Shown here piece by piece: positions 7,467-35,544 of a stretch of 40,172 nucleotides of DNA; position 1 is the stretch's first letter, and each line of letters begins with the position of its first letter. The position numbers and the translations under genes were made by a program. The DNA is taken from contig BEXV01000959.1 of the NCBI GenBank assembly GCA_003118195.1, positions 79,505 to 119,676 of the forward strand, written 5' to 3'. The notes under the pieces were generated by a model. It was not told the origin of the DNA. It worked only from the letters and a program-made list of their open reading frames with translations, and made no database searches. The DNA comes from Hemicentrotus pulcherrimus (Eukaryota; Echinodermata; Echinoidea; Camarodonta; Strongylocentrotidae).

Positions 7467-7651
7467 ATACGTTAGTGGCAATTTAAACCCTTGACTTTTA
7501 AATTGTCATTCTCATAGGCTTAATACTTTAATACTGCAGCCATCTAGTTCTTGTAGCCAAAGGGTTATTACTTTATTTGTTGATATTGTCAGCTATCGAC
7601 TGGATGAATATTTTAACCCCCTCTCTACCATTCTCTCCAACCTTCTAACAG

Positions 7652-7769
7652 AACAACTTGATCGGATTGAAGAGGGCATGGATCAGATTAATACAGACAT
7701 GAGAGAAGCAGAGAAGAATCTCACCGGTTTGGAGAAATGTTGTGGCATTTGTGTCTGTCCGTGGAAGAA
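7652..7769 (+). CDS. SNAP25: SNAP-25 exon: end of SNARE helix 1 and palmitoylated cysteine cluster
   Basis: SNAP-25 is a plasma-membrane t-SNARE that gives two helices to the four-helix syntaxin/synaptobrevin bundle driving vesicle fusion. This 118-bp exon starts two bases into codon 55 (acceptor CTTCTAACAG) and ends two bases into codon 94 (donor AA|GTAAGT). It encodes [13 protein letters not shown]... through [10 protein letters not shown]. Core-layer residues +1 to +8 of helix 1 are all present (L57, I60, M64, I67, M71, A74, L78, L81 in vertebrate numbering). The cysteine cluster that is palmitoylated in the family follows: C84, C85, C88 and C90, with W in place of C92. As I recall, vertebrates duplicate this exon (5a/5b) at the same 118-bp length; only one copy was seen here. 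The helix-1 zero-layer glutamine would lie just upstream, outside the recognised exons. Confidence 0.96.
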
Positions 7770-8304
7770 GTAAGTTCTTGTTATATAAGCCAGAATATTT
7801 TGTGACATGAAACAGTCACAAACAGTTAATATCAGTCATATGTATGACAAGTTATTTTTGTGGATTTTGTTATACTTTGTATTGTGATAAGTGTTATCTA
7901 AAGGCATGGTATTCCACTGACTACTTTAGATTTATGTGTCTGCCATCTGCTTCTCATGATGTGTCGACAGCCATGTCCCATAATGCATCCCAAATGATGA
8001 GGTGTGCCTGATGATTCTTGGGTACAGGAACCGAAAATCGCTTTATGTATGCCTTCACCGAAAAATGACACAATTGAACGGTGGTAGCGATCACAGTATT
8101 GCATGAAAATTTTCAAATCTCAAGCACTTTAGAAATTTGTTAAAGTTTCATGACAGTTTCTGGTTTTACAGTAAACCTCATTCATTCATGACACATTTAA
8201 CATCCTCAACCAAAAAATGCTTCAGCGAAATAAAATTATATAAATGTCTTATTACACAGACATCAGTAAGTATGTGTAGGATACCTGCAGACGGAGCACA
8301 CAGA

Positions 8305-14661: not shown

Positions 14662-16110
14662 GGGAGATGAGCAACATTGAATTTACACATTGTTATGAAA
14701 TGAAACAAGTATACAGTGAATACAATACATATTTCTGCACCTATTAAAGTGTGGATGATAAACTAATATGTTAATTTTGCAATTTCATTCAAGTTATTAT
14801 TATCTACTGAAGGCAATAACAAAAGTAGTACCAGTAGTCTGCGTGGAGGGAAATTTAATATTACATGTGATTTTGAACAAATACAGAACCTTGAAACAGC
14901 TGAAGTTGTACATCAACCCAAACAAAATATTCAGATACCGGTAACTTGCCAGCCACATGCATGCACCCAGGGTTGTACATACAGGTTCTTAAATTAACTC
15001 GGTAACAGCCTCAGATTCTGAAACAAAATCCTGGATTTAGCTCATGCTGCAATGATAATTATAAACCTTTAGGTCTGTCAGGAATCCCATGACTTTTACA
15101 AGCTGATTGCCTGTTCGATTATCAAGATATTTATGATCGGAAATCAAAATTTAGTTTTTTGTTTTCCCAACAATTTTTATAATACTACAGTCAATTGGGG
15201 AAATGAGTATGGTAAAACCGGTCACTCGCTACTTTTATGAGGCACTTCATGATCATTTTAAAGCGCACTTTTGTAGTGGCTTCAATATTACACCATATCA
15301 CAGACACTGATAACACGTAGGGCCATGCATCTCAGATTTAACATTGTTAAACAATGCCTTTAACATCTGAGGATGAGCATGTCGAGGTGATTTTTATCTC
15401 GTATTCTACCTGACAATAGCACATCTTCAGGGGAGAAGAAAGCGATTCACCTGATCAAGTTTAAACATTGACACATCAGGTTTCCTGGAATTAGTTGAAA
15501 AGCAACTATTGACGCTTCTTCAGAGCATGTAGAGTCAAGGCACATGCCCCCGGAGGACTAGCGGAACAAAGCCGAGCGCGCTTCCCGGCGTAACAGTATC
15601 TGCAGAGATATTTACCAAGAAACGATGTAAAAAGAGATGATTCCGTTTCTAACGGATGTCAGCAGGATTCTATCAAAGTGCTTTGGTCAGGTATTAAGTT
15701 TCTGTTTTATCGTGGCAACAGAAACAAAGTAGAAATCCAATAGTTATGAGAGGTTACTTTGTGCAAAATATTTGACATATCTTCATGACAATCACTAAAG
15801 GTTATGATCAGAAATAAAAACATGAAACAGTCGGCTAAAATTTCTACAATTTTGTTCTCAATTTGATAATAGAATTACGAAAATTTTACATTGTTTATTT
15901 GAATCATTTGTCTAATGATCAGTATGAAATAGGTTGTTTTACGGATAAAATTCATACGACCTGGTAATAGATTCAATTTTTTCCGAAATTTCATTTATTA
16001 ATACAATACACCATGCATCAACTGAACTGCATGATAATGTTATTGACCCTCCTGATGTGTTTATTAAATTATTTTTCTTCTTCTTATCACTGTTAATTGT
16101 TCATCTGCAG

Positions 16111-16144
16111 ATTGGGTAGCTTTGAGAACAGTGATGATCATTAA
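16111..16144 (+). pseudogene. Decoy copy 1 of the linker-exon start
   Basis: Follows an acceptor (TTCATCTGCAG). Joined in frame to the exon ending at 7769, it would add LGSFENSDDH after lysine and then stop (TAA 16142-16144). Most diverged of the three copies (AGC in place of AAC, weaker pyrimidine tract). Whether it is ever spliced cannot be told from sequence. Confidence 0.8.
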
Positions 16145-16258
16145 TAAAGATGATGATGATAGTGATAATAATTATAATCAACTTTATAAAGTGCTTATAT
16201 GACTACGAGAAGACATCGCCTTTAATGCAATATTTTTCTTCTTTTTCTTCTTCTGCAG

Positions 16259-16292
16259 ATTGGGTAACTTTGAGAACAGTGATGATCACTAA
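16259..16292 (+). pseudogene. Decoy copy 2 of the linker-exon start
   Basis: Follows a strong acceptor (TTCTTCTTTTTCTTCTTCTGCAG region, ending 16258). It encodes LGNFENSDDH, then two stops (first 16290-16292). The acceptor is at least as pyrimidine-rich as that of the real exon. Confidence 0.85.
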
Positions 16293-16411
16293 TAATGATG
16301 ATGATGATAGTGATAATAATTATAATCAACTTTATAAAGTGCTTATATGACTATAAGAAAGGCATCTTCCTTAATTAATTCAATATTTTTCTTCTTTTTC
16401 TTCTTCTGCAG

Positions 16412-16445
16412 ATTGGGTAACTTTGAGAACAGTGATGATCACTAA
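16412..16445 (+). pseudogene. Decoy copy 3 of the linker-exon start
   Basis: Follows the same kind of strong acceptor (ending 16411). It encodes LGNFENSDDH, then stop (16443-16445). It lies 154 bp before the functional exon, close enough that the two 3' splice sites should compete. Confidence 0.85.
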
Positions 16446-16565
16446 TGATGATGATGATGATAGTGATAATAATTATAATCAACTTTATAAAGTGTGTATA
16501 CATGTATGACTACGAGAAGACATCGCCTTTAATGCAATATTTTTTTCTTTTTTGTTTCTCTGCAG

Positions 16566-16703
16566 ATTGGGTAACTTTGAGAAGGGTGATGACTACAAGA
16601 AAACATGGAAGGGGAATGATGACGGCAAGGTCAATTCCCATCAGCCAATGAGAATGGAGGATGATCGTGATGGTTGCGGTGGTAACGCGTCCATGATTAC
16701 AAG
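16566..16703 (+). CDS. SNAP25: SNAP-25 exon: inter-helix linker
   Basis: This 138-bp exon encodes the flexible linker joining the two SNARE helices, which lies along the plasma membrane. Acceptor TTTCTCTGCAG; the first base completes lysine 94; the donor is AG|GTCAGT, splitting an arginine codon. The product runs LGNFEKGDDYKKTWKGNDDG, KVNSHQPMRM, then a DDRDGCGGNASMIT segment. The QPxR motif matches the QPARV membrane-targeting motif of vertebrate SNAP-25. The linker is about four residues longer than in vertebrates. A lone cysteine in the DGCGG segment is unusual. The choice of this acceptor over the three upstream copies is forced by the open frame: only this copy reads through to the next exon. 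Confidence 0.95.
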
Positions 16704-17090
16704 GTCAGTCAGTCGGTCAAAATCAGTTCTGGAAAAAGTGGAAAATAATTTGTGAATTATTCTCATTCTTTCATATTAGTTTTGGAAGAACATCTTAAAT
16801 TACAATTTCACATGAAAATGATTGCTCTCATTATAATGGTTATCATAATATTGATACTAGTTTCTTAAAAAGTACTTTACCAATAACTGACAAAACCGGT
16901 TACAGTATTAGTATGACTAGAAACAGTCTAAAACAAATCTTTGATGCCACCTGTGTGCGTAGTCCCATATACACGTGTCTGTGTCCTGTGCATTTTATGT
17001 GATTTTAAGCAATATGCAATCCATGATCATTTATGTTTGTTTGATGATTACCTGATTGCTAACGAAGCATGCTTATGCTTGTAAGTAATC

Positions 17091-19173: not shown

Positions 19174-20218
19174 AGAAGAAGAAGAAGAAAATATAAGACC
19201 ACTATTCACACATTGGTATATACTGGCAAACAATCATCACTACATACTAACATCCCACAATCTTTTCTTATTATTTATTTGTTTCATTGATTTGCTCATC
19301 TGGAGTAGAAAGTAAAATTAGGTATTTAAATCCAGTAGATCTAACAAGATATATTTCTTGGACTTGGCAATATACGAGGATCTAAACTTTCATAGTGTTG
19401 GCATTTGATATTCAAACAACATCACATTGTTTAACATACTCTTGTTGCCAGTTAGGTGCTAAGAAAGACCAAAATTTAGGGTACAAATTAAGACTATGTT
19501 GTGACACATGATAAATCACTTGTGATGTTGTGATATAATTACAATTTTGGAAAATTGAAAGTGATTTGAGAGTTATGTGATCCGGACAGGTGTTATATAT
19601 CGAACCTTAAGGCAGTCCGTCTCGATGAATGGAAATACCAAAGGTTGCCAACTTGATTGCAATCCGCACCGACTTCCTGATAAAGGTTGTTAGAAGCGTT
19701 GAAGGACCCTACTCAACTTTACAATTTCCACACCAATTATCTTATCAATTTTTAAGTGTTTTTTTTAAAGCATTCTGCGCATCAAAAAGGTTCATATGAT
19801 ATGTTATAACCAACATAAGACTTATCAATATCAGTAAAAGTAGGGCCTTAATTGCTCACCATTTTATTTTATGCTGCAATTTGGGGGCATATAGAAGCTT
19901 GTTTAAATGCATGCTCAGAAGTGTTAAAGGGGGTATAACATGACAAAAACAGGTTAACGCCATCTACGACTTCTTTTAGAGAACTGCACGTAAACGAATG
20001 GACTTGATTAACGGTCAGCGGGCGCTAACATTCCTGAAACAGATTACAATTTTAATACCGGTATACCATTTTTTATTAAAGAAATGATAGTAATATTTAT
20101 TTTAACATGCTATGTATTTCAAGTGCTTTTAATGTAAATTGAATGGTTACCATTTTCAATAGTCTCAATAAACCATTCAGTTGACTTATCCCTGTGTCTG
20201 TCTCACTCTCATCTACAG

Positions 20219-20363
20219 AATAACAAACGATGCCCGTGAGGACGAGATGGACGAGAACCTCACACAGGTTAGCGGCATTGTGGGTAATCTACGTCACATG
20301 GCCATCGACATGCAGAGTGAGATCGGAGCGCAGAACTCGCAGGTCGGACGCATCACCAGCAAG
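20219..20363 (+). CDS. SNAP25: SNAP-25 exon: SNARE helix 2, layers -7 to +2 with the zero-layer glutamine
   Basis: 145 bp; acceptor TCATCTACAG, donor AAG|GTAAGA, ending in phase 0. It encodes [48 protein letters not shown], immediately recognisable as the second SNARE helix of SNAP-25. Core residues are conserved: L150, V153, V157, L160, A164, M167, I171, the ionic zero-layer Q174, V178 and I181 (vertebrate numbering). Aspartate 179, one of the acidic residues implicated in synaptotagmin binding in vertebrates, is glycine here. Because the exon ends exactly after residue 184, the rest of the helix must come from one of the downstream terminal exons (23626, 28635 or 35279), all in matching phase 0. 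Confidence 0.97.
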
Positions 20364-20379
20364 GTAAGATACAAGCTCT

Positions 20380-20492
20380 GGGGGGGTGTTTCACAAAACT
20401 TGTCATCAGTGACACATGGCAGTTTTTGTTATAATCTACTGAAATCCTTGCTTCTGATTGGTTATCAACAAATTTGTCACTGATTTTGTAAC
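20380..20492. repeat. Short repeat with GGGGGTGTTTCACAAA end
   Basis: The left end GGGGGGTGTTTCACAAAACT matches the end of the 5941-6213 element. The inner blocks TGTCATCAGTGACA and TTGTCACTGATTTTGTAAC form an imperfect inverted repeat. It lies 16 bases from the 5' splice site of the helix-2 exon, so it is in the nascent transcript near a regulated splicing decision. Confidence 0.5.
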
Positions 20493-20972
20493 TTTTCATT
20501 AAACGATTCAATGATCCACCGCTCCCATACATCCCATGCCGCATCTTTCATCCATAATACATTAAGCTGCAGCTTTAAAAAAAATGTTGTTTTTGGTTGG
20601 ATCTTTGCACGCAAGCGCACTCGAAAGGCACGGTATAGTTCTGCAAAGATTTTGTACTGTGGAAAAAGTCTTGAAAGCTAATGGAACAAGCCAAGCTATG
20701 TCCACTTTAATTTATAAGTTTAGCTGTCTTTGATTACAACGAGCATTAAGCCTACATAGCCTGATTTTCATTTGCCTTGATTAATGTGCAGGCACTGCCC
20801 CCCCCCCCAAAAAAAAAACAGTTTCATTTGAGAAAATGCCTTATATTGATTCATATTTAGTTATTTTATTGTCTCAAATCTGATTAAACACATTGATATA
20901 AAGAGGAACACCATGCAATATTGGTTTGGTTTCCTTGGCTTTGGTTGCCTCGGCATAATAAATGAAATATTA

Positions 20973-21054
20973 CATCTTGTTATCTGTTTAGAGCCAAAAG
21001 GGCATTTAATCTGTTCTGGGGTATTAATGCTCTTTTGGCTCTCAGCACAAGATG
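20973..21054. repeat. Palindromic hairpin repeat, copy 2 (longest stem)
   Basis: CATCTTGT...GAGCCAAAAGGGCATTTAAT pairs with ATTAATGCTCTTTTGGCTCT...ACAAGATG across a short CTGTTCTGGGGT-like loop. Arms are about 35 bases with few mismatches. The core matches copies at 6260, 24830 and 33955. Confidence 0.7.
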
Positions 21055-23625
21055 AATACCGTACATTATTGTTTATATCATGCCATTGTGACAATTGTTT
21101 CATGATTAAACTTTGTTTCACAATGTTACATATTGATAGGCACTTTTTGTTGTCAGTTTTACCATCTTTTATGGGATGATATTGTTAACTCATGAAATCA
21201 TGCACCTCCACTCATCTTTAGATGGCATCGCATGGTAAAATTCATCTTCTTGAAAGCCATATTATACGAAGTACTTTATTGTATTTTGGCATCGCTTGGA
21301 ACAGTTGTGTACAATTGAACATTTGTATGCAATCAAACATTTGTGTGCAATTTGAAAATTTGTAAGCCATTTTTGTTTTCACATTTGTTTTAGGCAGATC
21401 TAGGCAACAATGATTTTTCTTATACAGGTGTAGATTGTATTTGTTGAAACACGACAAAAACAATGAGTCCATTTCATTTAAAAGTAGTTGTTATTTCATT
21501 AGATTTAAAACATGTGGAATGTTAATGGAGGAAATTTTGTTATATATCCAAAGATATGTGGAATACAGCTATACCAACTATGTTTTAATAGCTAGTGAAA
21601 TAATTATAAAAAGGCCTATCATTTCAAACAATTGGGTAATACTAGCTACCCACGTGAAACATCTACTTGCTACTAAAGGGTGTCAGGTGAAAATTGGGGA
21701 AAACTTTAAAACTATAAATTAATGGATTTGCTACTTTTTGACACCATGATGTGATTTCCATATGTATTAGGAATGGTTGAGTATCTTAGATCACTTTAAA
21801 TGAAAGTATTCTGATGTTCAAACAGTCTTTAAAACATTGTCCGCTCTGAACTGGATTATCTTGTGTTCACATCCCCCAAGATATTGTTAAGGTCCAATGA
21901 TATATCATGTGTAATAATGACAAAACTCTAGATAGACTCAATGCCAGTTTGGTGTTCTCTTGGATGTTACATGCATTATGTATTGCCTGGCATTGCACCA
22001 GACACACAAGCACATTTATAGTTATCATAATCTTCACCACCCTGTAGCTATTAAGATCATTGCTTTTTGTTCGTTATGAGGTATGCATTTAAGTGCTATA
22101 TTACAAGTTGAAGCATCTGGTTTTTCTCCACAGACCTATGTTGAAGTTCTATATTCTCTAATACTGAGTTTGACACTTTTCAAATTTAAATTGATTTGTA
22201 ATGCTTTCTGCATGCCTTCTTTTTAAAGTTACCAGTCATGAAAAAGGAGACCATATTAACTCAAAAGTATCTTTGAAGTATAAAATTCATATTGATCTCT
22301 AAAGTAAACCTCAAGCATGATACGTTTATAAGTGACCAACTAATAAACATGTTACTCATCAGAATAACTCTAGCATGTACAATGATTGAATTTACTAAGA
22401 TTTTAATATTGATTGATTTAGTAATTCCTTTTGTTTTCAACATGATTATGATGTTTTTTGAGATTGATTTACCTTACTTTTTCCTTTTTCATATGCCGAT
22501 TGGGTGGAGTTGGTTACCATAGTCTGATCATATGTGTTAAGAAACTCATTGGTTTTCTCTATACAAAGTCAATTTGTTGATGCTGTAAGCCAAAATCTGA
22601 TGGAGAACAAGACAATTTGTTGATCTCTTTCAGATTGACTTGAACATATGAAAAATGCAGCAATCATTACCATTTAAAAGACCTTTGGGATTTCTTATGT
22701 CATTTTGTTGTCTAATGATACCTTACCATGTCATGCATGACATCTGGAATTTAGAGGGAAGAAGATATTGATGTAACACGCCATTATTAGAACTATCCAC
22801 CCACACAGCTAGTAAAGAAAATAATTTGACAATTTTGGTGCGTGCATGATGGATTTTGTGTTATCCCACACAGCGACCCAGATGCATTGATCACGTATAA
22901 TACTCCTGCAGATATCATCTTTGTTTTCCCCTATGGATTATTCAAGAAGTTTTTTTAATATTGGTTGCTGTTTCAAAGAAAGAGGATGAGAAGGAGTTAT
23001 TCAGGGTTTTGAATATTTACACCCACTCCCCCATGCCTGTTATATCACGCTTTTCAAAATGACATCATATCTATTTCCGTTGCATTACATCATAGATGAA
23101 ACCAGGGGGAAATTGTGCATGCCGTTTGATAATATTCCATAAATGCTGTTGTAAATTATTTTGTTTTTCTATAACTGTTCAAGGGATGAGCATTGTTCAT
23201 CAAACACATGTAAATTACGGAAATCAACTTCACCCCACTCCTCTACGGGTGCATGTGTTACATAACGGCACCTACTTTGTATTATTATGTAGGTCTAACC
23301 ACCACCCTTTACATTTTTCAATAATTAATTTCCTAATCATGTTTAAACCCTTTTTTGCATCATGGAGTCATAGCTTTGAATGATTAATGCTTTATCAAAT
23401 TACACTTTGTCATTCATTGATTTTCTTTCCTTCATAATTTTAACTCATTCATTCTTTTTCCTTCCATTTTGTTTTTTGGTACCTCTATTTCTCCCACACC
23501 CTACGCTGCACACACTCACGCCACACATGGTTTGCTTCTTGGTGTCATCCATTATTCTTTCGTCCTTCTTTATAAACCCATCCTCATTGGTTTTTTCCAT
23601 CGTGTTTTTGTTGTCAAACTATCAG

Positions 23626-23688
23626 GGTGACTCTAACGTGGAACGCTTGGCTGTAGCTAACAGCCGTGCTAGCAAGCTTCTCAAATAA
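23626..23688 (+). CDS. SNAP25: SNAP-25 alternative terminal exon A (invertebrate-type C-terminus)
   Basis: After the acceptor AACTATCAG, a phase-0 frame of 20 codons plus TAA begins GDSNVERLAV and ends ANSRASKLLK. Joined to K184 it completes SNARE helix 2 with layers +3 to +8 as G185, N188, L192, A195, A199 and L202. It ends two residues earlier than exons B and C; from memory, the -LLK ending resembles insect and other invertebrate SNAP-25. D186 and S187 of the vertebrate protein are kept, but D193 is alanine. The stop codon overlaps an AATAAA hexamer (23684-23689), and another AATAAA follows at 23878. A separate poly(A) site and use as an alternative last exon are inferred from this. Confidence 0.93.
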   Translation, partial: GDSNVERLAVANSRASKLLK

Positions 23689-23689
23689 A
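23684..23689 (+). promoter_or_regulatory. AATAAA overlapping the stop codon of exon A
   Basis: The stop TAA (23686-23688) lies within AATAAA. If used, cleavage would fall 10-30 bases later and give a nearly absent 3' UTR. It may be coincidence from AAA TAA A. Confidence 0.3.
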
Positions 23690-23877
23690 GCCCTACGTGG
23701 AGTACTATGTGTGGGAAACGGCGTGCACACAACCACCCTCATGATGAATCTGAGATGAATAGAAGATTTACCATCACTTTTAGCAATTCTCACCATATGA
23801 TTTAATATTGCTTATTCAGCAACGCCATTCTTGCAATGAATGAGAGAAAACTGATTTGAGTGATTATTTTTCTTCAG

Positions 23878-23883
23878 AATAAA
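23878..23883 (+). promoter_or_regulatory. Candidate poly(A) signal for exon A transcripts
   Basis: AATAAA 190 bases after the exon A stop, in AT-rich sequence with T-rich stretches just after. A second AATAAA lies at 24179-24184. Which one is used, if any, cannot be decided from sequence. Confidence 0.45.
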
Positions 23884-24829
23884 AATATTCAAAATTTGCT
23901 ATTTTAAGTTTCACAACAGCAAACTATTTTTTGGGTGTAACAATGTTTTCTTTGCACATAACTTTTCTAATATGTACTGACAATAAGATTCCAAATGTTA
24001 TAAGACTGAAGGAATACATACTAAATGCGTGGTTATTTAGAAGACCTTTGCATAGAACGTGAATTCCTGTGTTAGTATTTTCCATATAATGCTTTTGACA
24101 CAAGTGTGTAGATTGTAGACCAGAAAGGTATCTTCAAATTCAATCAAATTTTAACACAACTCAGACAAAATATCATTTAATAAAGATATAAATGATCTAT
24201 ATGAAATAGCTGTATCATCAATTCTGCAAATGAAGAAGAAAAAAAAATCTATGTATGCAACCACCCACTCTGATGTAAATTTAAACAGCATGTACTAGCT
24301 CATTAAAAGTCAACTTATACAGTGAAGCAAGATATATTTTCAATGTATTTACGTAAGAAAGATACCAAGAACTTGAAAGGTTTCTAAATGTCAGAAGGGG
24401 ATCATTCTAATCACCGATTGGGTATTAATTTGACATGAGATATTGATGGATTGTTCGTAAAGTTTGAAGGTCATTTACCTCACTTGTTGTACTCTTTCTA
24501 AAGTCATAAATCAGCCAACCGTGGTTTACTAATACTGGTTTCAAAGTGCATGGGTGGCTTTCTAAAAGCCCTCTTGAATAGAAATATGTTTTTAAAGTAT
24601 ACCGGTACTACAATTTTCAACATTATATTCAAAATGACAGAATCAATTACCCAGCAATGAGCCTTCATTATTTCTATCTTTGAACATTATTATTTCTCAA
24701 TTATATACTGTACTTCTTTGTTTGCCCTTCCACGTACTAACACTATATGACCCTGTCTGTTGGATCATGGCTTACTATTACTTCGATATCTTAACATTCC
24801 TACACTTCTGCATGCTAGAAAGAATTTAT

Positions 24830-24903
24830 TGTCTGTTTGGTGCCAGAAGGTTGCTATCTTACATACTTTAACACAGAGTTAATGCCCTCTGCCTCTGAAC
24901 AGG
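24830..24903. repeat. Palindromic hairpin repeat, copy 3 (diverged)
   Basis: TGTCTGTTTGGTGCCAGAAGG pairs imperfectly with the minus-strand copy near the right end (GCCTGTTCAGAGGCAGAGGG). The GAGTTAATGCCCT phrase is shared with the other copies. Confidence 0.5.
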
Positions 24904-27060
24904 CATTCTCATATATAACAGTGTGACCCCCACCTACTCATATAACCTCATATTTACTTGTGGTTAATGTATTATTTAGGACCTTATATCGTTTTAGTCC
25001 ATATGTTCTTATCATTATTTGTCTTTAAGTTTTCTTTCAACCAGCAAATGTAGTATAAATCTGTCCCTCTTATAAACTCTATGCAATTTATACTTCTCAA
25101 TGTTAAATGGATGTCTAGACAAAAGTGGCGGTGAAATTGAAATTGCTTCTTATTTCTGGCCTTTTATGGTCAGCTGAATCGTTGCGAACTTAAAGTGTGG
25201 TTTTGAGAGAAAGTGCTTCTGTTTCTGGTAAAGTGTTGTCAAACTTGTGGTCCACTAATTAACAACAGTGAAAATGTTTGTGGAGTATTTTTTGTTCTAA
25301 CATTTGACAGTGGAAAAGTGTTACTCCTGCCACTTCTTGGCCCAAATAACTTAAAGACTCAGATCAAACCCAAGGGAAATACAACTGAAATCATCACTAT
25401 TGGATTAAAAGACACATTGATGGTAAACTTGGAATAAGAGTTGGTGATTTTTCATCAAGTATAAAAAGTATAGGCCAATTTACAACATATAAATTTCCAA
25501 TGATTATAATGAAATACCTATTTCAAAGAGCTGTTTTATAGCTCTATTCTTGTCATATAACCTGGACTCAAATATTTGTGGAAATGCATACCAGTAATCT
25601 AAATTTCTCCTTACCATTTTTTTTTTTTTTAATGAAGTGAACAAATTTTATAAACCATAGATGGAATTTTCCTTTCTGTATGGTATCTTTGAATGAAAGA
25701 TCCTTGCCAAATTGAATCAATACCTTAACGTATATACCCAAATTTGTTTTTATGATCCATCAATCCTTTTTCATACAAACAAGTACTTGTAAAGACAAAG
25801 CTCATCATAATTACATTGCTTGCAACAAAATATGAAATGTTCCAAACAAACTATCCCTTTCTTTCTTTAATTGTTTTATAATCCATTAATTTCATTGTAA
25901 TACAATGACATTTATATTAATGTTATTTGCGTGGTCCTTAGTTTCTATACCAATATATCAATGTTATTTTTTCCCTTTTCTAGCTATCAGCCTACAGTAC
26001 CAGATTTATTTAGACCTATTTCTAAACCTTTTTTACTACTCAGTGACATTTCCATACAAAGAACCATGATTTCCTGCCTCCCCTACATAATATATGAGCT
26101 TAATCCCGTCTTCCCCTGTTGGCATTTTATCCAACACCCACACGCATCAGTCCATTCATGTACAGATTTCTATTTATCAACATAGATGCAGTATCTATCC
26201 CCTCTTTTTTATTATTCATACCAATTTTGAACAACCTAATTCGGCCTGCGTTCATCCTTTCTCTCCTCATATCCAAATTCTCACCTTCTGAATATTGCCC
26301 CTAGCGATGTGACATACCCAATCACCTCATTGCTTCATCTTTCTTCCCATGTTCTTGCCGAGGTCTATTATAACTCACTTCACCCTTGTTTTTCACCTTC
26401 GGATCGCCCCATTCATAGTATTTGTCTCATCCTTTGTCTATTATTAGAATTTATTTTATAGTGAGGCATAATGTTGATCAACTTCAATAATATTGGCCTG
26501 AATTTTGTTCCAATGATTTGACCCAATGGCACAGGACAAAATTAAATCCACCCACACAAAAAATGAGGAAATTATATATGAAAAGAAGGTCATATGAAAT
26601 GGGCGATTTGTAAATCCATGCTCTGAATATTGATAAGTTCTTTTGGGCCGAAGAAAAAGCGGTATTTTGGGAGAACAAGTAATCTTGTTGACAGAAGATT
26701 GGATCTATCTTCAAAACCATGAGATGGAGGTGTAAACAAAGAACAAATTGGAAAGTTTACATTCTAAAAGATCATTTAAAATTCTGAGCTTGATTTAATA
26801 GGCTTAATAGTATCTTCATTTAAGGTTAACAAATGGTAAACATGAAAGTCATGCATGCAGTAGACAATTAGTATAATTTTATATTACACCTTTACTTGCA
26901 CAAAGAAATAACCCTAAAAGAAATTGGGATGCTTTTTGTTGTTGAATAGAACATACTGACTTTACTTTGAAGGTTTGAAAGTGTATTGATTAGAGGTGCT
27001 CATCTGTTTTTTCCATTGGGATGTTTTTAGGAGGTACCATAAAGTGACTGATTATTGGTT

Positions 27061-27600
27061 AACGTAGGGTGCAAGCACCGTTAGCATACAGAAGTATGTA
27101 ACTCTGTATTGCACGAAACCAGTTCGAGTACACTGCCATGTATAGGAAACAAAGTATTATAAATCGGTTCCTTGTACACCCTCCCAGAATGTGCGAGTAT
27201 GTTCCGTCATGCTAGCCACGCTTGACATGTATCGTGGTCGGACACCTGTCAGATGGTCACTCGGTCCCATGCGTCCACGGGGCCAGATTATCGGTAAACA
27301 CCGCCCCTCCCTCCCTCTCCCTTCCTCATCCACTCTTCATCTATCCTAGCTCACCACATTGCAAGCACATGCCTGGTATATGTTTTCGTCCATGCCAAAG
27401 CAGCATTCGTACTCAAGCACCGATGGTATCATCCGCCAGAAAGGCGTTGCATGGCTCCTATCACTATGGATAGAGCTCATTGTCAGCTAGCTGCCCGGGC
27501 GCTAGAAGGCAGTTCATGCCATAGACATTACATGGCTCTTACCTCGCGGCCGGGTAGCCACTGTAACGCCGTTCTGGCTCTCAGTCTCAGTACATAGTCA
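27061..27600. other. GC-richer, CpG-containing patch of unknown role
   Basis: Base composition changes from the AT-rich surroundings to roughly half GC with many CpG (ATCGTGGTCGGACACC, GCGTCCACGGGGCC, CTCGCGGCCGGGTAGCC). No SNAP-25-like exon and no long conserved-looking frame was found. It could be a cis-regulatory region, an alternative exon or a repeat. Function unknown. Confidence 0.4.
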
Positions 27601-28583
27601 ATGAATGATGTATTCTATAGCATGCATGATGATATGCATCTCCTAGTATTATCATACAGACTTACATCAAGGAATGCATGTACATGTTCATTAATCCCAC
27701 AAGTCATTTACTAATGCTTGGATGATGAGATGTAAAGCATTTGTCATCCTGTTTTTCTCAAGAGTTTGTCCCTTCGCTCTCTCTTCGTCTAAAGTAACTC
27801 AGCATTATCACCTGATATTACCCTTGAGTATATATACATGTAAGCTCTTTGAATTTACCTCTTGAACATCAAAGAGGATTGTCTTGCACCAGTATCATGA
27901 ATGTAGTCATAAAATCGCAATCTCACAGGCACTAAGCATGCATGGACTTCTTGTTCTCACTAAGTTCTCATCTTGCATGTTGTCTTTCTTTTATTTTGAT
28001 ATTTATGAGTTTGTTTTTATTGCTTGCTTGTTCTTAATTGTGGCTTTACATGCATGCTAAAGTCATATTTCTGTTGAAAATGATCATGATACTAACCACC
28101 AGGTCGAGGAAATGTAATCTGCAATTCCTACAATAAGCTTTTGTTCTTGTAAGCATTCCAGTTCAGAAATCAATGCTGCAAGCGTGATGCTGTATATTAA
28201 TGGCATTCCAACTAACCTCTTTCTTCTTTCAAAGAGACCAGTGTGCAGTGTTTGTATTGAAATTGTTACCTACATGTATCCATGATGAAGTGGTCATGTC
28301 TGTTTGCTGAATGGATACTCGTGTAACATGCAATATTTACTCATTTGTTAACCCCCACATGTTGTTGCTGAATTTACTCGTCATGTTTTACCGATCGAGA
28401 TGTGTCGTCCCACCAAATAATGTCATGTTCTGTCTTTTTCCCCCTTCTCTCTCCCTCTTCCTTATACCTCACCCCCCTCACATATAACCCCACCTTCACC
28501 TTCATCCCTCCATCACACTAATCATGATGGCTGCTCACTTCCCCCCTCCCCCCTCACCTCCATGCCTTCATCTCCTGGACCTG

Positions 28584-28603
28584 TGACCTGTGACCTTTGA
28601 CCC
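28584..28603 (-). promoter_or_regulatory. Three nuclear-receptor-type half-sites, including a DR1
   Basis: On the minus strand the sequence reads GGGTCAAAGGTCACAGGTCA: three AGGTCA-type half-sites spaced by one base. GGGTCAAAGGTCA is a canonical DR1 element of the kind bound by HNF4, RXR or COUP-TF family receptors. It lies only 31 bases before exon B, so it might be part of the splice-site environment and not a DNA regulatory site. Chance occurrence is possible. Confidence 0.35.
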
Positions 28604-28634
28604 GTCATGTGACTTCCCCCCCGTCTGTCTGCAG

Positions 28635-28703
28635 GCACGCCTAAATGACGACCGTATTGATATTGCGAACAAGCGTGCCACGACAATTCTTCAGAAGAAT
28701 TGA
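28635..28703 (+). CDS. SNAP25: SNAP-25 alternative terminal exon B (vertebrate-like C-terminus)
   Basis: After the acceptor GTCTGTCTGCAG, 22 codons plus TGA: begins ARLNDDRIDIANKRAT and ends TILQKN. In phase 0 it continues directly from K184. Layer residues are A185, N188, I192, A195, A199 and I202. It is the closest of the three to the vertebrate C-terminus (11 of 22 residues identical, including the RID and AN.RAT stretches) and has the same length. D193 is kept, but D186 is arginine and the PKC-site serine S187 is leucine. The last three residues are QKN. There is no frameshift or other defect. Its position between A and C, with its own stop and downstream AATAAA motifs, supports an alternative last exon. 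Confidence 0.93.
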   Translation, partial: ARLNDDRIDIANKRATTILQKN

Positions 28704-29179
28704 AGCGTTCCCGCAATGCACGTGATCGATTATTCCATTCCCATTACATCCATGTACTTGTATTATATCATTCATGTACAGTTGTACAGTGGTGTACCTG
28801 TATGTGACTCTTAACTTACATGATCAGTCATTTCATGGGAATTATACCTTGTAGATATTCAGTTAACTTACAAGACAAAACGGATACATTCTACAAGTAG
28901 ATTTATCACGTTGATATAATAAGAGACGTGCCGTAAATCACAAATTTATTAGGTTTTTTCCCCTGAAATGTTAGGTTGACAAGGCATGACTCAGCACCTG
29001 TATTCATTCTTTTTAAACTTTTCTTGTTATAATGTGCAATATTCAAAACATTTGTTGGGTTGTGTGTCATACAGATGACAATCAACTTGTATTCCAATGA
29101 GACAATTAATGTTTTGTTCACATGAACAATCCATCAAAATAATGTTAGTTTATTTATCAGCAAGATGATATTGATTCAG

Positions 29180-29185
29180 AATAAA
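29180..29185 (+). promoter_or_regulatory. Candidate poly(A) signal for exon B transcripts
   Basis: First AATAAA after exon B, 477 bases past the stop. Others lie at 30746-30751 and 30813-30818. The use of any of them is not shown by sequence. Confidence 0.4.
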
Positions 29186-29635
29186 GATACATCATTGCTC
29201 CAACCATGACAAATATGTATTTAGAGGAACGAGGACAAATACATTTCTCAAGCAGGGTATTGTACTACTAGGGTTTGATTTGATTCATTTATGTGTTAGA
29301 ATTTTGTAATCTGCTTTTGGTAAAAGAAAAAGTTGAAGGAGAAAAGCTAGCTATGCCACTATTTTTGTTTGCCCAGCATAAGTTTTTCTTGAATCTCATT
29401 TCCAGTGTTGTTTGTGCAGCAAATAAGCAGTATGTGTGAACAAAAATGTTATTTTCAGCTGAAAATAGCATTGTAGAATAGGCAAATTCTTTCAGATGCC
29501 GCTATCATATTTGTGAATTTTTTGAACTGTAGGGTTCTGAGCTTTAGAATAATGTGCTTGTGTAGTTCGCTCAGAAACATAATATGTATTATGTACACAA
29601 AGAGCAAAACTGCATCAATTATTTTGCCTAGAATT

Positions 29636-29790
29636 ATATATATATGATATATTCCTGAGTCATCTGTTTGTATATATATATATAAATGTGTCTCTTATAA
29701 TAACCATTTATGCATATAATATATACTGTGTGTTAGCTTTATATTTGTAGTGCTGAGAGAGATATATTATATATATTCATGTGCAATTTT
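29636..29790. repeat. AT-dinucleotide-rich region
   Basis: Several short (TA)n runs (29636-29645, about 29672-29684, around 29765) in very AT-rich DNA. Simple sequence. Confidence 0.7.
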
Positions 29791-30745
29791 CTGTTGGTAG
29801 AGGTTTTCGAAAGTGCTAGGACTTGTGTCGCAAACTGTTTGAAAGAGTTTGAGAACTTTTTTTCTTCTTCAAGTGTGTGTCTCAAAGAACTTCTTAGAAC
29901 TTAAATTATGATTGTGAATTTTCTTTCACAATTTATTCATAAAGATTGATATGAGAGTTAAATTTCATTTTTGTAAGGATTGGATTGGCTGATATGAATG
30001 GCTAGACTTTTACTAATGAATAGTTTAACAGTGGTGTAATGCTCTTATCAATCGTTTTAATTTATTCAATAACAGGTTGTGAAAATGGTCCTCGTTTTTT
30101 CCATAAGAGATTGGTATTCTAAACTGATAACTTTCATTTTAAGTAGTTTTTAATTTTAAAAATACGATCAGTCTATACTAGAATTTACTGATTTTTACAA
30201 GAGGACTTTTTTATTTCAGGACTATAGATGTCACTCTTTCTCATGTTAGAATGAATTGGATGTATAACATTCTGAATGTTAGCCAAATTTCTTGCACTTC
30301 GTACATGTAAACATCGGTAGGACTAGAGTTAAGGACTGTACATATGAATCTACTACCCCTTTTTAGTATGTTTCAGAGCGGAAGAATTTTGTCATCATGT
30401 TTAATGCGGTGCAACGACATCAATTTGTACATAAACCGAACGAACTAAATTTCTTTCATGAAAGCCACAAATTGTAAGAGTTTATGTGTACTTGCATAAT
30501 TCTTTTATTTGATCTGCGATTTTTAATTATTTTTTCTGCATGATGTTTTTTCTAAATGTATTTATAACGATATACCTAATTAGAAGTACTAAGTGTTGTT
30601 TAAGGTCAAATGATGTAATGTACTTTCACTGTATTTCTTCCCTGTTAAACTGATACTGTTTAGCATTTTGTTTTGTACTGTGCTAAATCTGGAAGGTAAC
30701 AAAATGAAATGCAAAGGATTCAAAACAACGTGAAAGCAAAATCGA

Positions 30746-30818
30746 AATAAAAGGGTATGAAACCAAACATGTGCTGTTTTAAGTTCACTTCTGTATCAAC
30801 TGTAAAGTGTAGAATAAA
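30746..30818 (+). promoter_or_regulatory. Pair of candidate poly(A) signals
   Basis: AATAAA at 30746-30751 and again at 30813-30818, about 2.1 kb past the exon B stop. They could mark the end of a long 3' UTR. Confidence 0.35.
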
Positions 30819-31541
30819 GGGTGTAGAGTGATTTACAAATCTGATATGCTTGATCTTCATATAACCTCATTTGCACATAATATCAATCCAACTTTATGAT
30901 TGTGAGACCTGTCAGCTCAAAACCATGAATAAGTTTCTAAATTGTTTGTTTTGTTTCCCTTCTTTTTTTGTGTGTAATATATTCTTCTGTGTTTTACTCC
31001 AGTAAAACCAACATAGATATCTTGGTAGATGTAGAGAAATTAATAACATCTAATTAAGTGAATCAATCATTTTCACCCTTTTGGTGCAAAGTCTTATTAC
31101 ATTTCAAGATTCTAGCAGGCCATGAAAATATGCAACTATGTTTATCATCAACAATATGCTGATTCTTAAAGTTTTAGATTCAATTTACAGGTGTGTTGTT
31201 GATATGTTTATTTTGTGCAAATGGGGTTGTTTTGATACTACTAAAAAATTTAGTTTCTATTACCAGTAGTGCTGAACTGGTTCGAGAATGTAATGTTTAG
31301 AGGAAGATGACAAATTTAAAGATTGCCCAATGTGTTTTTTAAAATCCAGGCTTAACTTGATGAAAGTTGGAGTGCTTATTCAGCTGTATGAGAAAACATC
31401 TTTCAAACAAGAAGCATGATCACAGCTAGTTTCTAGAAGAACACAAATCATTTCAAAGGAATACCCTGATGTATATCCAAAAGAAATCATGTTTGGATTA
31501 CATAATACATGTATCGGTATGTTGTTGAAATATACGCACAA

Positions 31542-32070
31542 GGCCCGTCTTCACTATCTCGAGATTGCCAACTATCCAGCTATTTTTAACTATCCCGATC
31601 GCAAACTATCCAGCTATTTGCGTCTTCATTAGACCGAAGTGGCAAATTAGCTGGATAGTTGGTCGGGATAATATCCCAAGATATCTCGGTCTAGTTTGCA
31701 AAATATCCTTCTATTTCCCAACTAGCGGGATAGTTCGCGACCGTCTTCATTAGACCGAAGTACGGAGTGAATTATCCCGATCCCATCATGCACAACGATT
31801 TCCGGTTCGCACATGCGATCTATACCGCTCAGTGCGCTAGTACAACCACTGACCTCGAGTAAACACGGAAAACCGCAAACTAGACCGAGATATCTTGGGA
31901 TATTATCCCGACCAACTATCCAGCTAATTTGCTACTTCGGTCTAATGAAGACGCAAATAGCTGGATAGCTTTCGATCGGGATAGTTCAAAATAGCTGGAT
32001 ATTTGGCAATCTCGAGATATAGTTCAAAATAGCTGGATATTTGGCAATCTCGAGATAGTGCAGACACGCC
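31542..32070. repeat. Large foldback MITE-like element, copy 3
   Basis: About 530 bp, forming a long inverted repeat. The left arm (GGCCCGTCTTCACTATCTCG..., AACTATCCAGCTATTTGCGTC, TTAGACCGAAG, TTAGCTGGATAGTTGGTCGG, ATCCCAAGATATCTCGGTC) is mirrored by the right arm (GACCGAGATATCTTGGGATA, CCGACCAACTATCCAGCTAA, CTTCGGTCTAATGAAGACGC). The unpaired centre is about 170 bp and includes GATTTCCGGTTCGCACATGC. The right end carries a ~42-bp tandem duplication of the terminal block (GTTCAAAATAGCTGGATATT). It shares internal blocks with copies 1, 2 and 4. No transposase. Confidence 0.8.
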
Positions 32071-33588
32071 TACATTTCTAAAGGTAATGGACAAGAGTTG
32101 AGTTTGTTTGAGTAGTTGTGATCACGTTATCACTTCTTCCTAGAGTAAGCAATGATAAAACAAGAGTGGATTTAACTGGTACGAGAATTAGATCTTCATG
32201 AAAATCAATGTGACACAAGTAGAACTTCCCCTTTTCCCGGGAGAAATGTTTATGTCCTCTTCACCGCTGACAAAAGGAAAAGCACACCTTCTTCTTGGAC
32301 TCCTCGGCATACATAATGGATAAGTGGATACAACTTTACAGAATTATCAATGTTTGATGTTATAGAATAGATTGCTACAATTTTATCTCACTTTATTACG
32401 TCAATGAATGTCTATCTTATTCTTTTCTATCTGTAGTATGCTTTTATGATATTTATTCTATACTTTCCTAAAGTTTTAGGCTTTTAACCTTTTTTTCTGT
32501 CAGTTGTATGTGTTAAAGTACATTTTCTAAGTATTTGAGTGAGTATTCTAAGCAGATCAAAGGTTTAATTAGAAACTGTGCTCAATGATGCCCACATTCC
32601 CCTAGTCCTTGGTTCAATGAATTTTATCATGGGTTGTGGACAAAATAAATCATACATGAAAACAAATATATGCCATGAATCTGTCACTCAATGACATAAT
32701 GTAATTCGGGGATGACTATTTCCGCTCCATTTCTATTTGTAAAATTGACAGCATATTTCAGTATTGTCATGGAAGGCATTTCTGTACTTTTTGCATAATG
32801 TGTGGAAAGTCAATATATCATAGGTTTGATGTACATGCAGCAATGCAGTATAGTATGGTAATTTCTTTTTTTTAATGGAAAAAATAAGTTTGAGATGGTA
32901 CTCTTGTGTAGCTGCCATTTTGACATTTGTCGTTCTTACGGCTAAGAGAGAGGGGGACGAAATTAGGAAAAGTACCAAGGGGAGTTTTTAATTTTTGACT
33001 TTCATTCATTCAAGCATTCACTCATACTCGCTTCATTTCTCCCAGCATGTAAATTTATTCTCTCTTTGAGCATTATATGTTAATTTATTTGCATACCGGT
33101 ATATGTTAATTTATCTGTATGTTCTCAATGTAATTCCACAAGACTCTCAGTAGCATATATATTTTGATGGGTTGTATGTATATTGTAGATCATTGTAGGA
33201 TTGTGTTTTGATGTTGGTTGTTTGTCTGGGTTTTTCAATGTTTTTTTCCTGTGAATTTTCATGCTACACTGCACTATACGAGTGCTGGCAAACCTGACCT
33301 GCAGCAGACCCGACCCGACCCGACAGCCAAATAATGAAAGCATGTGCACGTGTATAAGAGCATGCCTGCAATCTGATTTTGTACACCTATTTTACACCAA
33401 AGCTAGCCATTCTGATGAGTTTATTTCTGTATCAACGATCTCATTGAATGTGTTTCACAATGACTTTGTGGCGGCTCAGCATGTCCTTGTGGGAAAGTAT
33501 CCGAACATCATGAAGCCAGTGAAGCATCAAACCACACCATCAGTCGTGAAGCCTTGGCCAGGCTATGTTTGTCAAGACTAGATTCAAC

Positions 33589-33939
33589 GGCCTGTCTTCA
33601 TTAGCTCGAGATTGCCAAATAGCCTGCTATTTCTGACTTGGGAAATAATCCCGAAGTTACAAAACGCGTCTTCATCAGCTCGAGACTTGACCTCGAAACT
33701 TGAGACTCGAGCTCAGCGTTTGCGCATAGTGGGAGTCTTCGGGCTGGTAATGACGCACCGGACAAACAACGGGATACTTTGCAAACTAGTCCAAGATATC
33801 TTGGGATGATCATCTTGTCCAAATATCCCGCTAATCGCAACTTCGGGCTGATGAAGACGCAAATTAACTAGATAATTTGCGATCAAGGGTAGTTCAAATT
33901 GTGGGATGTTTGGCAATCTCGAGCTGATGAGGACAGACC
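33589..33939. repeat. Foldback MITE-like element, copy 4
   Basis: Opens GGCCTGTCTTCATTAGCTCG and ends CTCGAGCTGATGAGGACAGACC, inverted ends of the same family. The middle holds CCAAGATATCTTGG, and the blocks AATATCCCGCTAATCGCAAC and TTCGGGCTGATGAAGACGCA closely match copy 1. Open frames on both strands across it are by-products of the palindrome. Confidence 0.8.
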
Positions 33940-33954
33940 TAATGTTCCTTGATC

Positions 33955-34018
33955 TCTGTTGAGAGCCAGAAGGGTGTTAGCTTTCTGAGTATACCGCCCT
34001 CCTTGCTCTAAAACAGAT
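33955..34018. repeat. Palindromic hairpin repeat, copy 4
   Basis: TCTGTTGAGAGCCAGAAGGG pairs imperfectly with CCCTCCTTGCTCTAAAACAGA. Only 15 bases after MITE copy 4. Same core as the copies at 6260, 20973 and 24830. Confidence 0.5.
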
Positions 34019-35278
34019 GATGTCTTCCTCATCCTTATCTGTTTCATCATGTATGTTCTGTAGAATGATATTAGTCTGTACAATGAACCCAGTTTTCTGT
34101 CTACAAACTCACTCTTCGATCCCTCTTCTATCCCTCTTCTATGTACCAGAAAGTCTAGGTTGAATATTCCTCATCTAACCAAGATTACTTGAATATTAAA
34201 ATTGAATTGACACTCACTAGATAGGCTCCATATCATTTAGCATGCCTGAATGCCAAGTAAAATAATACTTTCCACACCCAGTTCACCATTCTGTTAAATT
34301 CTCTAATGAATCTAATTGATTTATTATACTAACATCGATAAAAAGATAAAATTTGCAGTTGCTCTTTGCCATTCTTGGAAGGAAGTAACATTTTTAAGAT
34401 GCTGTTTGATTTCATTGTTTACGTAGAATCATCAATATCCTAGGACACTACTTTATACATGTAGTACGACAGCACATTATCCATAATTCAAGTTAATATG
34501 TTGATATGTGTCGTAACACTGAAGTGAGCTGCAGCAGTACAATTCTAAGATTGTCTGGGACTAAACAAAATCTCCAGGAATCGCAAAGACCATCTCTGTT
34601 GACCACTTTACTATGCACATTTTCATGGTGCATTCATTTCCAAAAATCCTCTCTTGTGAATAGAATAGTTTTCGGATTCTCATATTTGCCATATTTTTCT
34701 CTAGAAAAGTTCACGTTTCATTACATTTTTTTAGTACTTACATGTTCCCATTTATTTTTAGATTTGACTTTGATAGATCAAAGTTGATTTCTTTCTGAAT
34801 GAATTTTTGTGCTTGTTTATTTGATTGTGTGTTTTTCTGTTTCTAGCTGTGTGTTATTGTTGTGTTTTTAAACTTTGTTGTTCATGTACAGGTTTTTTAG
34901 TATGAGAAAGAGAATCGTTGTATATAATTTGTTATGTCATAATGGATTTGGAAGATTTATGTATGAATTCTGTAGGACACAACTGCAATATTCATAAGAC
35001 ATTGAACAGCAGCAATTTTTTTTGTGTGCTTTATATGCCATTTGCCTTTTTTCATGACTGTTTTTTTTTTGTCTACCGGGTAATCTTCATCATAATTATT
35101 TTCCCATCAGAGAGTTGTCACTTTTACAGTATTGTGACGCTGAATCCATTCCAAATTTCCATTCTGATTTCCAACTGATTTGTTAAACTATGTATAGCTG
35201 TCACAATGCAAATGATTAAATCTCTTTCTCTTCCTCTCCCCTTCTCTTCTGTCTCGTTCATCTCTCTTGTCCATCCAG

Positions 35279-35347
35279 GCTGAATCCAACGAATATAGAA
35301 TAACCAGCGCTGACAAGAGAGCGAAGAACATCCTAAGGAACAAGTAA
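35279..35347 (+). CDS. SNAP25: SNAP-25 alternative terminal exon C
   Basis: After a long polypyrimidine tract and the acceptor CCATCCAG, 22 codons plus TAA: begins AESNEYRITSADKRAK and ends NILRNK. Phase 0, continuing from K184. Layer residues are A185, N188, I192, A195, A199 and I202. Compared with vertebrate SNAP-25, S187 is kept, D186 is glutamate and D193 is threonine, and a tyrosine sits at 190. The end is the most basic of the three (KRAK..LRNK). It is as similar to exon B (10 of 22) as either is to the vertebrate end. AATAAA motifs follow at 35513 and 35539. Oddly, the last codons and stop form a good 5' splice site (CAA|GTAAGA at 35344), so splicing past the stop is conceivable. Confidence 0.92.
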   Translation, partial: AESNEYRITSADKRAKNILRNK

Positions 35348-35512: not shown

Positions 35513-35544
35513 AATAAAAACTTCTAGATGCAAACAGTAATAAA
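35513..35544 (+). promoter_or_regulatory. Candidate poly(A) signals for exon C transcripts
   Basis: AATAAA at 35513-35518 and again at 35539-35544, 166-192 bases after the stop, followed by a T-run (GTTTTTTTTC). The spacing suits a short 3' UTR. A further AATAAA at 39882-39887 could serve a long one. Confidence 0.55.

Follow-up and report, generated by a model that had tools for sequence, protein, structure and literature searches.

Three predicted alternative last exons in a sea urchin SNAP-25 gene vary the C-terminal end of the second SNARE helix

Introduction

In vertebrates, SNAP-25a and SNAP-25b are produced from two mutually exclusive exons, 5a and 5b, which form a tandem duplicated pair inside a SNARE helix. 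According to excerpts of one study, Torpedo and Drosophila lack this exon 5 pair, which is present in bony fish and higher vertebrates, and mice deficient in SNAP-25b show impaired short-term plasticity (PMC2581893). A second precedent is tropomyosin, in which three tandem duplicated 3' exons lead to homologous C-termini. Sections of a study of TPM1, lev-11 and Tm1 describe these tandem 3' exons as apparently lacking a common ancestor (PMC9741552).

Here we describe the 3' part of a sea urchin SNAP-25 gene, carried on the plus strand of a 40 kb stretch of DNA (the whole of the sequence analysed, hereafter the window). Like SNAP-25a/b, the urchin gene has a tandem duplicated exon inside a SNARE helix, and in the same protein family. 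However, the vertebrate duplication affects an internal exon in helix 1, whereas the urchin duplication affects the last exon, encoding layers +3 to +8 of helix 2; the urchin gene has three copies of this tail and, unlike the vertebrate gene with its exons 5a and 5b, a single exon 5 within the window. The three tandem 3' exons and their homologous C-termini recall tropomyosin, although tropomyosin is a coiled coil of filaments and SNAP-25 a membrane-fusion engine. Further parallels are SNAP-25 gene models of molluscs (for example Pomacea and Mercenaria) and of a rotifer (Brachionus), which like the urchin gene switch exactly at residue 185 with identical sequence upstream, but have two tails instead of three. 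We propose, with a probability of about 86%, that a single echinoid SNAP-25 gene has three alternative last exons, derived from an old tandem duplication, and places one tail on each mRNA.

Results

The SNAP-25 gene and its upstream exons

Human SNAP-25 aligned by tblastn with 7651-7770 (end of helix 1), roughly 16543-16704 (linker) and 20208-20366 (helix 2). Exon bounds were refined from these spans by splice sites, with an AG before and a GT after each exon (Table 1). The end-of-helix-1 exon is 77.5% identical to human SNAP-25b over 40 residues and the common helix 2 exon 68% identical to the human protein over 53 residues, while the linker exon scored 210 of 247 possible against the Diadema peptide. 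The end of helix 1, the CCGICVCP cysteine cluster, the linker and helix 2 occur in the order expected of a two-helix SNAP-25, the layer-0 glutamine of helix 2 is present (QN at 174-175), and the SNAP-25-like proteins of two sea urchins, Diadema setosum and Lytechinus pictus, share 89% identity with the encoded protein. The N-terminal half of helix 1 and the protein start were searched for in the window and not found; the missing half of the helix presumably lies upstream. No second copies of the exon 5, 6 or 7 peptides were found in the window, and the window has no Rfam match at gathering score and no tRNA.

In a tandem array of units of about 150 nt at 16050-16607, the linker-exon acceptor is repeated: upstream TGCAG copies end at 16110, 16258 and 16411, and each of the three is followed by ten codons (LGSFENSDDH or LGNFENSDDH) and an in-frame TAA, ahead of the real exon at 16566. 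These are decoy acceptors, from which truncated products could arise.

Table 1. Exons and candidate polyadenylation signals of the SNAP-25 gene in the window
Feature	Position	Strand	Details
End-of-helix-1 exon (C-terminal half of helix 1 and cysteine cluster; equivalent to vertebrate exon 5)	7652..7769	+	AG before, GTAAGT after
Linker exon (LGNFEKGDDYKKTW...MITR)	16566..16703	+	AG before, GTCAGT after; tblastn match
Common helix 2 exon, to K184, layers to +2	20219..20363	+	AG before, GTAAGA after
Terminal exon T1, GDSNVERLAVANSRASKLLK then stop	23626..23688	+	Profile 32.5 bits, directly after AG
Possible poly(A) signal AATAAA, 190 nt past T1 stop	23878..23883	+	Motif only
Terminal exon T2, ARLNDDRIDIANKRATTILQKN then stop	28635..28703	+	Profile 42.6 bits, directly after AG
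Possible poly(A) signal AATAAA, 477 nt past T2 stop	29180..29185	+	Motif only
Terminal exon T3, AESNEYRITSADKRAKNILRNK then stop	35279..35347	+	Profile 42.7 bits, directly after AG
Possible poly(A) signal AATAAA, 166 nt past T3 stop	35513..35518	+	Motif only

Three terminal exons

We scanned both strands of the 40 kb with a profile of 19 positions (residues 185-203) built from 82 distinct tails of 118 homologues, these being 120 homologue rows minus two echinoid rows, with other echinoderms retained. T1, T2 and T3 were the only sites above 4 bits, so that no fourth terminal exon was found on either strand of the window, and their stops fall one residue (T1) or three residues (T2 and T3) beyond the end of the profile. 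Across 30 dinucleotide shuffles the best score was 6.6 bits, and no match above 4 bits was preceded by AG. The joined upstream exons form an open frame that continues in phase 0 into all three terminal exons. This joined frame bears out the sequence-only reading, in which a helix 2 exon (20219-20363) ends in phase 0 at residue 184, the equivalent of human K184, and is followed by three phase-0 acceptors at 23626, 28635 and 35279, each opening a frame with its own stop.

The same reading had counted 7-10 identities per pair of tails, and we obtained 7/20, 7/20 and 10/22. It was also correct that N188, R191, A195, R198 and A199 are kept in all three tails, as are the layer hydrophobics at 192 and 202; L203 is likewise invariant. 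It had described the tails as C-terminal half-helices and named layers +4 to +8. They do comprise the late layers at the C-terminal end of helix 2, but they start at layer +3 (residue 185) and make up about the last third of the helix, on layer numbers counted from the human SNAP-25 numbering.

The three exons are homologous, share the same phase and lie in tandem over 12 kb, as a tandem duplication would leave them. Residues common to a pair of tails are encoded by different codons in 5/7, 5/7 and 9/10 cases (the last being T2-T3, in which the stop codon differs too), and the terminal exons are thus not recent copies. Similar proteins with drifted silent positions are the pattern seen for old copies under selection. 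From the exon layout, we infer that T1, T2 and T3 are used in a mutually exclusive manner.

Downstream of the stops, the first GTRAG donor-like sites are 665 nt away for T1 and 1270 nt away for T2, and none was seen within 1.5 kb after T3. They bear on the idea that T1 and T2 are cassette exons with stops, whose inclusion ahead of T3 would mainly lower the amount of message by decay. Their stops are far upstream of the next exon, and such control could result; however, the GTRAG sites are distant and each exon codes for a conserved full-length tail, and we consider this explanation very unlikely. As for polyadenylation, AATAAA occurs 2 times against 4.6 expected between T1 and T2, 4 against 6.1 between T2 and T3, and 4 against 4.5 from T3 to the window end. 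Since this is below chance density, the motifs after the stops (Table 1) prove nothing.

Relatives of each tail

For each of the three tails, type-specific matches were found in other echinoderms. T1 is closest to isoform X5 of the starfish Patiria miniata (15/20), and the next best among the 120 homologue rows listed is an arthropod-like row (13/20). T2 matches Lytechinus pictus X2 (21/22), Apostichopus X3 (16/21), Asterias X4 and Acanthaster X4 (15/21 each) and Saccoglossus (14/22). T3 matches Acanthaster X7 (19/22), Diadema setosum X1 (18/22), Amphiura X2 (16/22), Antedon X1 (15/22), Apostichopus X4 (14/21) and Glandiceps X2 (14/22). These type-matched relatives share 6-11 identities with the two other window tails. 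T2-like and T3-like tails thus extend to hemichordates, and the T1 assignment rests on one named relative, Patiria.

Type specificity fades with distance. Among the 120 rows listed, molluscs have up to 12/20 identities to T1, near the 13/20 of the arthropod-like row, and up to 13/22 to T2, near the 14/22 of Saccoglossus; Ptychodera X12 has 10 identities to T2 and 8 and 7 to the other window tails, and the amphioxus tail fits all three nearly equally (10, 11 and 12 identities). A FastTree tree of 27 hand-picked tails, with local supports, clusters by tail type and not by species. Window T1 joins Patiria (0.957) and a T3 clade unites echinoderms with Glandiceps (0.758), while the T2 clade has a support of 0.830 without the starfish forms and 0.467 with them. 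Support is weak because the tails are only 20-22 residues long. Two further placements in this tree, of the cnidarian Exaiptasia with the T3 clade (0.930) and of Branchiostoma with T1 (0.721), make the deep branching untrustworthy; the tree is supportive for echinoderms and no guide deeper.

These matches also bear on whether no more than one or two terminal exons are in use and the rest are decaying relics of the duplication. In favour of relics, T1 has the lowest profile score and the weakest acceptor pyrimidine tract (0.65, against 0.80 and 0.80 for the others), and when its end of helix 2 served as the sole query of a protein search, the Patiria protein was the one match (E 9.2e-9), a single match that reflects a method needing shared exact words. 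Yet T1 is nearer to the starfish tail (15/20) than to its neighbours in the window (7/20). With all three frames intact up to their own stops and each tail having a type-specific echinoderm match, decay of some of the exons is unlikely. Conservation of only one exon in relatives, with frameshifts in the others, had been named in advance as the adverse outcome; we found the opposite, as all three have echinoderm matches.

The tail switch in other invertebrates

We assembled 19 species sets by hand from named homologue rows, excluding Apostichopus P0080, which is apparently another gene. The relatives' isoforms are database gene models, which we take to be mostly automatic predictions. Two different tails occur in 12/19 sets: the deuterostomes Acanthaster, Apostichopus and Ptychodera, the molluscs Pomacea, Saccostrea, Physella, Dreissena, Mercenaria, Babylonia, Crassostrea virginica and Elysia crispata, and the rotifer Brachionus. 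One tail only was present, among the rows listed, in Littorina, Haliotis, Glandiceps, Saccoglossus, Tubulanus, Liolophura and Biomphalaria (7/19). The protein database was clustered at 90% identity, and further tail isoforms are therefore possibly hidden; no species with all three tail types was seen among the relatives' rows listed. A protein search with an amphioxus query gave mostly vertebrate rows among the best 120 of 440.

One pair was compared in each two-tail set, and every pair is identical over 134-194 residues up to 184 and diverges exactly at 185. For example, the Brachionus calyciflorus pair (P0099 and P0113) shares 189 identical residues, followed by tails identical at 8/20 positions, and the longest contig behind both rows is 17,202 bases. 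The longest contig is of equal size in both rows for 10/12 pairs, the exceptions being Saccostrea and C. virginica. A further Babylonia row (P0043) differs upstream of the tail switch, and may come from another gene or assembly.

Separate tandem SNAP-25 paralogues, contributing the downstream tails from transcripts of their own, are a very unlikely source of this diversity. A second SNAP-25-like gene apparently does exist in Apostichopus (P0080), and the two tails of Elysia crispata are filed under two neighbouring locus tags. Against this, the stretch from T1 to the window end contains no second exon 5, 6 or 7 peptides; because these peptides occur once and no helix 2 lies between T1 and T3, the upstream exons are single-copy and the tails are not pieces of separate complete genes within the window. 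The identity of the relatives' two-tail proteins upstream of the switch also argues against paralogues.

The mollusc B tail, with S-L at 187-188 in Pomacea and Mercenaria and an ILRNQ end, stands apart from all window tails in the 27-tail tree; as it does not group with them, it may have arisen by independent duplication. Deep homology between T3 and mollusc B was suggested by a shared ILR(N/K)(K/Q) ending and by the S-L of Glandiceps, and is doubtful, as the mollusc B tails stand apart in the tree and the profile log-odds are mixed. The log-odds favour B for Glandiceps (+14.8 bits), Anneissia (+9.9), Branchiostoma (+6.9), Antedon (+3.7) and P0080 (+2.5), and favour A for window T3 (-12.6 bits), Apostichopus X4 (-13.2), Acanthaster X7 (-10.9), Amphiura (-7.1), Exaiptasia (-6.5) and Diadema (-5.8). 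At layer +4, the B tails of Pomacea and Mercenaria and the T3-like tail of Glandiceps have L in place of N188, a change inside the bundle and not on its surface.

Discussion

Our analysis suggests that each mature mRNA would join the exon at 20219-20363 to one of T1, T2 and T3, and that one gene would thereby yield three proteins, common up to K184 and different at 185-204/206 (layers +3 to +8). The inward layer residues are kept in kind (A/G at 185, N188, L/I at 192, A195, A199 and L/I at 202), and all three tails should therefore zipper into the SNARE bundle. The differences between the tails are mostly on the outward face. At position 187, a mammalian kinase C site, T1 and T3 carry S and T2 carries L; positions 186/193 are D/A in T1, R/D in T2 and E/T in T3. 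T1 ends at 204, two residues short of the vertebrate length, and the endings from 204 on are K (T1), QKN (T2) and RNK (T3).

In mammals, several interactions have been mapped to this end of the protein. In extracts of one report, displacement of a complexin fragment by synaptotagmin-1 depended, in one assay, on the acidic pair D186/D193, which had earlier been linked to calcium-dependent synaptotagmin binding (PMC9623538). According to portions of other studies, the accessory helix of complexin forms cross-links within the last 12 residues of SNAP-25 (PMC7116205), removal of the last three residues disables inhibition by G-beta-gamma (PMC11962901), and a C-terminal peptide, 189-206, competes for G-beta-gamma (PMC12302718). 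In the urchin, the alternative tails may adjust how exocytosis is triggered by calcium, clamped or inhibited by G proteins in different cells; neurons and eggs had been suggested as examples. R186-L187, in place of D186-S187, is present in the T2 tails of urchin, sea cucumber and hemichordate and absent from the T2-like tails of starfish, and the D186 of window T1 is replaced by T in Patiria. Since these differences are only partly conserved, we go no further than to infer that the tails tune late zippering.

Duplication of the last exon had been proposed to diversify the fusion-driving end of the SNARE, and this is supported by the type-specific echinoderm matches and by the switch at the same boundary in relatives. 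Two parts of that proposal did not hold. The diversity is not peculiar to one gene, as a starfish, a sea cucumber, a hemichordate, molluscs and a rotifer also have two tails, and this distribution indicates that the tail choice is old. Nor does the tail vary instead of helix 1, because isoforms of Acanthaster, Glandiceps and Ptychodera also vary in a helix 1 stretch, which reads SQDVGIKTLVML or SQDLGIKTIVML versus SKEAGIRTLVML or SKEAGINTLVML. This stretch looks like a second alternative exon pair, lying directly 5' of the exon 5 equivalent; a search of the window found neither version (SQDMGIKT... or SKEAGIRT...). In addition, the N-termini before SLESTRRML vary and are mostly longer in many echinoderm and hemichordate rows (e.g. 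MPSPVSSTANYPSQV and MPEPSATGPK), suggesting several first exons or promoters.

More tentatively, and at rather less than even odds, the choice of tails may be ancestral to echinoderms and hemichordates, possibly even to bilaterians, and may have been lost in the vertebrate line. The tail types would then keep distinct surfaces, and cells would use splicing to set the response of the final zippering step to synaptotagmin, complexin, kinase C and G-beta-gamma.

The literature that we searched on exons, isoforms, urchins and interfaces, mostly by title, yielded no paper on alternative SNAP-25 tails. Public gene models already contain tail isoforms, and we found no description of them as a system in that literature. 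What is new is the presence of tandem duplicated exons at a mechanically important site of a central protein.

In conclusion, few fusion proteins have been studied as intensively as SNAP-25, whose C-terminal layers matter for the last stage of fusion and for much of how exocytosis is regulated. Natural variants of the C-terminal segment would be ready-made probes of the function of its outer face, and sea urchin eggs are classic material for exocytosis. Overall, the three tails would show that exon duplication has been a source of diversity at both ends of SNAP-25, in helix 1 for vertebrates and in helix 2 for several invertebrate groups.
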